From Candidatus Equicola faecalis (GTDB lineage Bacteria > Bacteroidota > Bacteroidia > Bacteroidales > Bacteroidaceae): a stretch of 64,000 nucleotides of DNA. The stretch lies in assembly GCA_018065185.1 (NCBI GenBank), contig JAGHTU010000022.1:61305-125304 (forward strand). The letters are read 5' to 3'. A program made the position numbers and the translations under genes. The notes below the pieces were generated by a model that was given only the letters and a program-made list of their open reading frames with translations, was not told the origin of the DNA and did no database searches. Of this stretch, positions 3,056-64,000 are shown piece after piece (positions within the stretch are counted from its first letter, which is position 1; each line of letters starts with the position of its first letter).

Positions 3056-3274
3056 AGATTTGATGTTAGATATGGTAAAACATTTATCAAGGCAAAGGTA
3101 ACATTATTTTGGGTCATCTGCAAGGGAAAGACACTAACTAGTAAAATCAAAAAAGATAAAATTTTCGCAAGGCGAGCATAAATCCAAAAAATAATTGTCA
3201 AAGATCATTTTTTAGCCCTAAATTTTCCAATGTCACGAATGTCATGAAAAGTCAATGAATTCTGGGCGAGGGAA

Positions 3275-3362
3275 AATCAACCTATCAACCCTCCTCAATC
3301 GAACTGACAAGTTGGTCAAATCGACCCAACGAGTTGGGCGAATCGAGCCGTCGAGTGAGGCA
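3275..3362 (+). repeat. Diverged family 1 22-bp array (about 4 units)
   Basis: AATCAA/AATCGA at 3275, 3297, 3319 and 3341, exact 22-bp spacing. Unit 2 AATCGaactGACAAGTTGG matches AATCGtcgtGACAAGTTGG at 26575. Downstream CGAGTGaggCACTTCaAA resembles CGAGTGcaaGACTTCgAA at 26622. Confidence 0.65.
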
Positions 3363-3571
3363 CTTCAAAGCCTCCCTGCTTTCCGACACTCAGTTTAAAG
3401 TGGACAGCGCGACAGTTAGCAAATTCGCTCGTCGTAAGCAGACATTCTCAATGTTCGCTCCACAAGGGAGGAAGTAAAAGAGGAGTTTAGAGCCTCTCAA
3501 CTTTTAAAACCTACTGATTTATCTATTTTCTTTTTACCTTTGTCAAAGAAAAGGTAAGTATTCCGATTGTT

Positions 3572-26276: not shown

Positions 26277-26477
26277 TTCTTATTTTCGTTTTCGTAATAA
26301 TTAAATTGTTATTCCTTATAATATAGTGCAAATGTAATGATTTCCGATTTATTGAACAAATTCGCCAATGGGTATTTTTACAAAAATTCGATTTAAGCCT
26401 ATTTTTAAGCCCTCTAGCGCGTTTTTAACATTTAGGAGAAGGGGAAGATAATAAGATGCGCCATTATTTTTCCATCT

Positions 26478-26678
26478 TTGCCTCGCCATCTTCCGCTCGT
26501 TGCCTACGAATCGTCGTGACAATTTACCAAAATCGTCGTGACAATTTACTAAAATCGTCGTGACGATTTCATCGAATCGTCGTGACAAGTTGGAGGCTCT
26601 GTTGGTTTGACCTTGAGGCTTCGAGTGCAAGACTTCGAAACGTGGTATGGTCAAAGGCGACTCTTAAAGGATTGAAAA
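26478..26678 (+). repeat. Family 1 element, copy A
   Basis: Four 22-bp units starting AATCG at 26509, 26531, 26553, 26575 (AATCGTCGTGACAATTTACCAA type), flanked by TTGCCTACG and GGCTCTGTTGGTTTGACC...GGCTTCGAGTGCAAGACTTCGAAACGTGGTATGGTCAAAGGCGACT. Confidence 0.9.
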
Positions 26679-41261: not shown

Positions 41262-41466
41262 TTTTGCAACCATATAAAAGTTGCCTCTGACCATACTACA
41301 CCTCGAAGCCGAGCAACCGAAGCCTCAGGGTTGAACCAACGGAGCCTCCAACTTGTCACGACAATTTACTTAAATTTGTCACGATGATTTGCCCAAATTG
41401 TCACGATGATTTAATCAACTTGTCACGATGATTCGTAGGCAACGAGCGGAAGACAGCGAGGCAACG
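41262..41466 (-). repeat. Family 1 element, copy B (inverted relative to copy A)
   Basis: Cores TTGTCACGA at 41353, 41376, 41398, 41420 (spacing 23, 22, 22), bounded by GAACCAACGGAGCCTCCAAC and GATTCGTAGGCAACGAGCGGAAGA; reverse complement of copy A including outer flank GTATGGTCAGAGGCAACTTTTA. Confidence 0.9.
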
Positions 41467-41511
41467 TGCGATTAAAGTTTAATCTGCGAGTGTAAAATCT
41501 GACGAAAGCAA

Positions 41512-41645
41512 CCCTGTTCCAACGCATGCTTTTTGACAAACGCACGATTGGGCTTCGACAAACGCTCGTTTGTGCCTCGACAAACGCTCGTTTGTGCCTC
41601 GTCTTCCCATCGTTTGTGAGCAGTCAAACGCACGCTTGGTTTTCA
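41512..41645 (+). repeat. Family 2 22-bp palindromic array, copy D (5 units)
   Basis: Units at 41536, 41558, 41580, 41602, 41624. Core ACAAACG-CT-CGTTTGT. Shares 41521-41550 (30 nt) and 41576-41636 (61 nt) identically with copy E. Confidence 0.92.
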
Positions 41646-41689
41646 GCCTCCGAAGTCGCGGAACATCTGTTCCAATCGAGGGGATTCTC

Positions 41690-41844
41690 CGGTGCTTTCT
41701 TGGGGGTGTTCCGATGCTATCAAGGGAGTGTTGTGATGCCGTGCATGGCATCCCTTCGATGGTTATACGGGACCCCTTCGATGGTTATACGGGACCCCTT
41801 CGATGGTTATCCGACCTCCCCTTGATGGAAATCCGCTTCCCGTC
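41690..41844 (+). repeat. Third 22-bp tandem array abutting copy D
   Basis: CGATGGTTATACGGGACCCCTT at 41757 and 41779 identical, 41801 and 41823 diverged; weaker related units at 41690, 41712 and 41734 (one 23-bp step). Confidence 0.75.
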
Positions 41845-42059
41845 TCTTGATTTTCCATTTCTCGCAGTTCTTCTTAATGTTTCTTCAACTAGTGAAGTGG
41901 CGGAGCCAATGACACGCAGAGCAAATCTTGCCTCTTTTGAGGTAATGTCAGAAAGAATATCCCTTTCTGTAAGCAAGCTTTCAAAAGGCATATTCCTTCC
42001 GCCAAGCCATCTCATGATGGCTCAAGATTTGAAGCAGAGGGGCAGAGACCACAGAGAAA

Positions 42060-42131: not shown

Positions 42132-42143
42132 CTTCTTCTCCCT

Positions 42144-42159
42144 CGCGCGCATGCGCGCG
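42144..42159. repeat. 16-bp perfect CG-rich palindrome
   Basis: CGCGCGCATGCGCGCG, self-complementary and strictly alternating pyrimidine-purine. Confidence 0.9.
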
Positions 42160-42290
42160 TACCTTATTAATATGTGGGATAAAAATCTCTTGATGTATGC
42201 CGTAGTTTATAAAACAAACTATAAATTATTTTGAATTATGCTCCAGAAACATTATGTTTGCAGAGCATAATAAATCTTAGGGAGTTATAG

Positions 42291-49839: not shown

Positions 49840-49959
49840 GTCGCAAAATTAATATTTTTTATTCTATAAACACAATAGAATCATCACTCTAATTCTTTAC
49901 ATCGCGATGGAAAATGTAATATGGCGAGGAGCCTGCCTCGAGTCATGCTACACGGCTCT

Positions 49960-50124
49960 TTGAATATACGATGCTTCGAAGGCGAGCACTCGAAGCTTAG
50001 AAGTCAAACCAACAGAGCCTCCAACTTGTCGCGATGATTTTCCTAAATGATCACGATGATTTACCCAAATGATCACGATGATTCACTCAAATGATCGCGA
50101 TGATTCGTAGGCAACGATGCGAAG
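49960..50124 (-). repeat. Family 1 element, copy C
   Basis: Units at 50026, 50048, 50070, 50092 (22 bp each; TGATCACGATGATTTACCCAAA type), flanked by AAACCAACAGAGCCTCCAAC and GATTCGTAGGCAACG as in copies A and B; followed by hairpin AACTCGA-GGCT-TCGAGTT (50125-50142). Confidence 0.9.
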
Positions 50125-50355
50125 AACTCGAGGCTTCGAGTTAAAGAACCCGATTCTTTAAAGGGTAAAATCTGGTTTATGAATAGTTTTTTATTTTTTT
50201 GTCTCTTAATTCTTCTTTGCTTTTGTATGGCTGATGGGGGCAAAATCAGCAATAATAATATACAATATCAGAATGTTTTATTAAATTTGCACAATAGTAT
50301 ATACACTATTGGTGGGTAAGATATGAATAATAATAAACCTATAAGATATTAACAG

Positions 50356-63814: not shown

Positions 63815-64000
63815 TTCCCAACGCATGCTTTTTGACAAACGCACGATTGCTTTTCGACAAACGCTCGATTAGGCTTCGGCAAACGCTCGTTTGGGTCTCG
63901 ACAAACGCTCGTTTGTGCCTCGTCTTCCCATCGTTTGTGAGCAGTCAAACGCACGCTCGTTTTTCATCCTCCAAAGTCGCGGAACAGACGTTCCAATTGG
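63815..64000 (+). repeat. Family 2 22-bp palindromic array, copy E (6 units, continues past window)
   Basis: Units at 63835, 63857, 63879, 63901, 63923, 63945; identical to copy D over 63820-63849 and 63897-63957. Confidence 0.92.

Follow-up and report, generated by a model that had tools for sequence, protein, structure and literature searches.

The segment 41536-41844 represents one copy of an intergenic, non-coding element dispersed through the genome, here termed element B. This element is built of 22-bp units, and its length is kept far more strictly than its sequence, with changes in length that are mostly whole units. The segment lies within a 64,000-nucleotide stretch of Candidatus Equicola faecalis DNA, referred to as the window, in a draft genome of 2.09 Mb and 79 contigs that is 89% complete and whose LysS has its closest matches in Bacteroidaceae/Prevotellaceae metagenome genomes. 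Arrays with the same step but with unrelated unit sequences are found in the noncoding DNA of other Bacteroidales, and the most favored reading, held at a probability of roughly 0.4, is that the array step is selected, as dyad-bearing sites two helical turns apart that would be cooperatively bound on one face of the DNA and would grow by whole units.

The element B copy of this locus occupies 41522-41850 (about 300 bp) and has three parts, all read on the forward strand. The head (41522..41645) is made of units of the family CGACAAACGCTCGTTTGTGCCT, with the dyad ACAAACG-CT-CGTTTGT, and the tail (41757..41836) of units of the family CGATGGTTATACGGGACCCCTT, both being recognized by TRF and by alignment. 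Between them lies the core (41646..41756), five divergent 22-bp units in register, the last of which is 23 bp, with the dyads GGAACA-TC-TGTTCC and GATGCC-GTGCAT-GGCATC. The trinucleotide CGA stands at the same register position in both the head and the tail unit families. Some B copies continue into a non-periodic 3' tail, which here covers 41837..41930 on the forward strand (the end is imprecise) and in alignment is partly similar to the flanks of the copies in L009, L011, L018, L028 and L032.

The original prediction held that two different 22-bp repeat sequences are joined in nearly the same register, so that the step persists for about 300 bp while the unit changes. Its unit sequences and coordinates agree with the letters of the window, and the 22-bp step is indeed held over 41536-41844 as unit sequence changes. 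Autocorrelation over 41500-41850 is 0.57 at lag 22, 0.47 at lag 44 and 0.38 at lag 66, against a mean of 0.25. The signal is not confined to the identical units, as the intermediate segment 41646-41756 is by itself periodic, with a lag-22 identity of 0.55 compared with 0.265 +/- 0.048 in Markov shuffles; none of 20,000 shuffles reaches this value at lag 22, and across all lags between 8 and 44 none of 2,000 does so. The one departure from the 22-bp step, 23 bp at 41734-41757, was likewise confirmed. It is ancestral and was inherited by the element B copies, because 28 of the 29 anchored copies share one anchor-to-anchor distance across that unit.

Element B is present at no fewer than about 40 places in the draft genome, with identities of roughly 80-96%, and the count is a lower bound because many contigs begin or end inside the element. 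A second copy in the window (63819..63997, forward strand; 91% identity to B positions 8-157) is itself cut off by the contig end, which is window base 64000. Matches resembling the head unit number 89 in the genome. All 17 copies for which both neighboring genes are in view lie between those genes, of which 9 pairs are divergent, 5 co-directional and 3 convergent. A protein-coding role was considered and rejected: some copies have stops in all six frames, variable sites are spread 31/33/33 over the codon positions and thus show no codon periodicity, and the internal insertion in one copy is +22 bp, which is not a multiple of three. Near B copies there is also a recurrent GC-rich palindrome, CCCTCGCGCGCG..GCGCGTATATATAATAAGGTATAG, with nine matches in 255 kb of own-genome loci (L010:2612, L011:491, L014:2615, L015:3414, L020:2636, L022:3391, L029:3279, L035:278 and L038:2875); in the window it lies at 42138-42175, where the variant is GCGCGCGTACCTTATTAATATG.

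The comparison of copies bears directly on the proposal that length, not sequence, is maintained, and within the element B family it upholds it. Of 29 anchored copies, 28 have a core of 153 bp from anchor to anchor and one has 175 bp, so that the sole length change among them is exactly +22 bp, or one unit. Alignment of 25 cores over 191 columns shows 97 variable columns, at least 122 substitutions and a mean pairwise identity of 85%, and not one gap column, a scarcity of indels for which the yardstick is general expectation together with the outer tail of the element rather than a matched neutral locus. In that outer tail, steps of 22 bp (87 cases) are accompanied by steps of 21 bp (8 cases) and 23 bp (2 cases); indels are therefore possible in the element, yet they are absent from its core.

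It had also been suggested that whole units might be exchanged, and this is borne out in part. The number of head units differs from copy to copy, the number of tail units and the outermost tail step (21-23) vary as well, and one copy gained an internal unit. Linkage between variant columns falls to near-independence within about 20-30 bp: in the 25 copies r2 is 0.37 at 1-2 bp, 0.11 at 8-13 bp and 0.045 at 31-44 bp, the last being about the value of 1/(n-1) expected for 25 independent sequences. A sharp alignment of exchange boundaries with the unit register, on the other hand, did not emerge, the test for it giving only a small effect. Pairwise distances computed for the left half of the core are only weakly correlated with those for the right half (r = 0.15), and most pairs of variant columns more than 22 bp apart occur in all four combinations. 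The dispersed B copies thus look reshuffled in short tracts, and the linkage decay, the weak half-to-half correlation and the four-combination pairs point to short-tract conversion between them. Part of the pattern could also stem from recurrent mutation at a few tolerated positions.

Just upstream of element B lies a second dispersed intergenic element, A (41279..41480, forward strand), composed of 22-bp units such as CGATGATTTACCCAAATTGTCA followed by the tail GATTCGTAGGCAACGAGCGGAAGACAGCGAGGCAACG; TRF assigns it period 22, and the lag scan places a lag-22 array at 41343-41475. Similar places elsewhere in the genome have 77-89% identity to it, and two copies in the window, at 26457..26662 on the reverse strand (81%) and at 49958..50161 on the forward strand (77%), each carry a lag-22 array. 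A further intergenic 22-bp array at 3266..3386, found by TRF and the lag scan, has another unit, AATCGAACCAACAAGTTGGGCA. Every noncoding array found by the lag scan in the window has 22 as its best lag, and several different units are represented.

Element B itself appears to be restricted to this lineage. Among 398 further genomes of the genus none gave a match to it, the sole hit being a 50-bp piece of element A in genome G372; this piece (L070, about 1500; GATGATTC..AGCGGAAGAC..CGAGGCAACGAG) resembles the tail of A and is not accompanied by a periodic array. The core pattern was not found in GTDB genomes either, a set from which records of the own genome may have been left out. Synteny around the locus is not conserved in related genomes, and those genomes have no element B. 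The tail-unit pattern had no exact match in viral contigs, and a viral origin was set aside. The genus mate G016 has no match to element B and carries a dispersed piece of its own, about 160-180 bp long and built on a 22-bp step, at C1:655320, 708400 and 1775467.

The step reaches well beyond element B. Noncoding DNA, defined by masking the genes of a simple ORF caller, was scanned for the best repeat lag in 66-bp windows with at least 37 matches. The main set comprised 80 loci around lysS from Bacteroidales genomes, with 123 kb of noncoding DNA; it holds one neighborhood per genome, and related genomes are not independent, although 21 different loci contribute lag-22 arrays. Degenerate arrays numbered 28 at lag 22, 6 at lag 21 and 4 at lag 23, whereas the fifteen lags 15-20 and 24-32 together gave 7. 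Among genus mates the noncoding count was 17 at lag 22 against 2 at those fifteen other lags. TRF on the 80-locus set agreed, with 26 arrays at period 22, 8 at 21, 5 at 23 and one or two each at 19, 20, 24 and 25. Simple chance was rejected as the source of the peak, which is missing in shuffled sequences and in E. coli (no array in 27.6 kb of noncoding DNA) and nearly so in coding DNA from the scanned loci (0.33 per 100 kb, as against about 23 per 100 kb in noncoding DNA).

Arrays of the 22-bp type occur in Prevotella, Hoylesella, Bacteroides and Parabacteroides (mostly 21 in the last), and Mediterranea has one 23-bp array. Sampled genomes of several other Bacteroidales families gave no lag-22 array in 33 kb of noncoding DNA, with one array at lag 23 and one at lag 44, and the trait is therefore not universal in the order. 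No array at lag 22 was seen in the other classes of the phylum that were included. The unit sequences are unlike from genome to genome, so that, between genomes as within element B, what is common is the step and not the sequence. Within one genome the arrays are often of one unit family; this is so in P. pallens and also in G016, which has a recurrent piece of about 180 bp. The presence of arrays at one orthologous gap is conserved only sporadically. Genes beside the arrays are co-directional in 24 cases, divergent in 14 and convergent in 10, much as in the background (177, 101 and 67); since array orientation is that of the background, the arrays are not simply promoters or terminators, and a role of that kind alone was rejected.

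Other periods were also seen. The second commonest noncoding array period is 14 bp (L128-L207, L072-L107). Genome G016 has intergenic 41-bp tandem arrays (L074:3202-3465 and L075:1-375), equal in length to the MITEPgRS repeat reported for P. gingivalis, and genome G012 has at L234:1203-1334 an intergenic array whose unit is 33 bp, or three times 11 bp, beside a 22/44-bp array.

The units often carry a dyad. Of 73 unit consensi, 30 have one that is significant at p < 0.05, compared with an expectation of about 4, and relative to column-permuted controls the arrays have a dyad excess with a mean z of 1.9, half of them exceeding 1.64. In 12 of the 30 the dyad spacer is 0-2 nt, and centers this short favor a dimeric binding site over a hairpin.

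In the selected-step explanation, each 22-bp unit would be a symmetric putative protein-binding site lying two helical turns from the next, and it is because of this arrangement that the step would be under selection. A putative dimeric or oligomerizing DNA-binding protein, probably of nucleoid or architectural type, would load side by side along a single face of the double helix. Indels inside a unit would break the phase and be removed, whereas the gain or loss of a whole unit would be tolerated; point changes would be tolerated too, or would follow a changing protein. Slippage by whole units would lengthen and shorten the arrays, and unit variants would be shuffled by recombination between copies. 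The points in favor of this reading are the indel-free core of B, in which substitutions abound and the only length change is +22, the excess of lag-22 arrays in both noncoding sets, with which TRF agrees and which E. coli and coding DNA lack or nearly lack, the dyad excess and the short dyad spacers, the background-like gene orientation, the non-coding nature of B and the decay of linkage between its copies. Counting against it are the lack of a significant dyad in 43 of the 73 unit consensi, the yardstick used for indel scarcity, and the sampled families of the order that gave no lag-22 array. If a single protein family served all arrays, fast co-evolution or indirect readout would be needed, given how the units differ.

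Arrays of direct repeats in helical phase have precedents. In iteron arrays and in cooperative direct-repeat operators (e.g., those of BldC), repeats in helical phase are bound by proteins lying side by side. The likeness to the arrays described here concerns how such a system might work, through direct repeats spaced in helical phase, and it differs in that the present arrays occupy many sites per genome and, as far as examined, have no link to a replication or regulator gene.

The chief rival holds that these are selfish minisatellite elements of the BrickBuilt or PINSR type with no host function, in which duplications of about two helical turns arise by a replication-slippage or staggered-cut mechanism specific to these bacteria, the elements spread by transposition or copying, and old units decay by substitution. 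This is a serious possibility, though one rated at clearly less than even odds. BrickBuilt of Porphyromonas gingivalis is a MITE with a 23-nt minisatellite, and tandem direct repeats of 22, 23 and 41 nt are reported in that species (PMC4596501). These repeats and element B alike belong to Bacteroidales and are intergenic, multi-copy and lineage-specific with predicted stem-loops, and the P. gingivalis repeats consist of imperfect head-to-tail units of 22-23 nt in variable number between a leader and a tail; the units of element B, too, are imperfect, 22-23 nt long and set in tandem with no spacer between them, in many intergenic copies. BrickBuilt repeats one unit, whereas in element B units of several kinds share one register; BrickBuilt, with its IS5-like terminal inverted repeats, numbers about 19 copies, in contrast to at least about 40 copies of B. 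PINSR, found in the P. intermedia group, measures 188 bp and is intergenic, free of inverted repeats, lineage-specific, without coding function and present in 177-184 copies (PMC4755523). It resembles B in kind, not in shared sequence, being intergenic, non-coding, high-copy, lineage-specific and, as far as the flank alignment of B shows, like B without terminal inverted repeats; it differs, in a comparison made by description only, in that no 22-bp substructure is reported for it.

The lineage specificity and high copy number of B (absent from the 398 genus genomes, and its core from the GTDB set), its invariably intergenic position, the variable unit number at both ends, the neutral orientation of arrays in other genomes, and the lineage-specific, intergenic and non-coding character reported for PINSR and BrickBuilt (PMC4755523, PMC4596501) would all suit a selfish element. 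Pure decay, however, should bring indels as well as substitutions, and slippage alone is not expected to yield a dyad excess; the missing indels and the dyads thus speak against it. Nor does the flank alignment of B show a shared terminal inverted repeat or clean ends, although it had to be read from ragged copy ends and with no empty site for comparison. The genome, 89% complete, also yielded no Y1 (REP-type) transposase.

That the arrays act as RNA, forming tandem hairpins in untranslated regions or small RNAs that affect mRNA stability or attenuation, is improbable. Element B does fold better than shuffles (z = -3.5 on the forward strand and -2.2 on the reverse), dyads are enriched, and the long stem predicted for one array of genome G372 (z = -7.1) would be in keeping with such a role. 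Element A, however, folds no better than shuffles (z = -0.9), dyad centers are often 0-2 nt, and the arrays lie in convergent and divergent gaps at background rates. Two-sided changes affect 2 of 49 predicted pairs in the B core and the window has no Rfam match, and assignment to a structured RNA family was rejected on these grounds. The G372 array (L087:725-968) is a 22-bp array whose halves are roughly inverted copies of each other, which accounts for the length of its stem.

Least probable is that the arrays bind the protein of a mobile element, as ends of the Mu/Tn7 kind, plasmid-like iterons, or REP/REPIN with RAYT, for although MuA sites, TnsB sites and many plasmid iterons measure about 22 bp and the elements here are dispersed and intergenic, their units are unlike from genome to genome and no Y1 transposase is found in the 89% complete genome. 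REP, BIME and REPIN elements are scattered through intergenic DNA, show dyad symmetry and vary in sequence from lineage to lineage. The arrays share with these RAYT-associated units their dispersed intergenic location, dyads and lineage-dependent sequence, and they differ in being tandem with a fixed 22-bp step; REP/REPIN with RAYT was rejected when PF01797 (Y1) gave no match in the 89% complete genome, with positive controls.

A broader picture can be drawn, though as a whole it is doubtful. Several Bacteroidales families may carry chromosome-wide intergenic arrays that are defined by spacing and whose symmetric units would be bound by a putative fast-evolving architectural protein, the units turning over between species while the step persists and their variants being homogenized and shuffled by short-tract ectopic conversion. 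In the literature searched, which took in few subscription papers, the search for a 22-bp Bacteroidales array class led only to the BrickBuilt/P. gingivalis repeats and PINSR, and no account of an order-wide 22-bp preference was found there; the covered sections of the BrickBuilt paper (PMC4596501) do not discuss such a preference with unrelated units.

The species-specific 22/23-nt repeats and PINSR have so far been described for single species or small groups, and they may form one wider Bacteroidales class, recognizable by step length and not by sequence. A class defined by its step is missed by ordinary homology searches. Its arrays also break draft assemblies, and many contigs of the source genome end in them. 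If the spacing is selected, dominant gut bacteria would share a DNA-binding system that has yet to be discovered.
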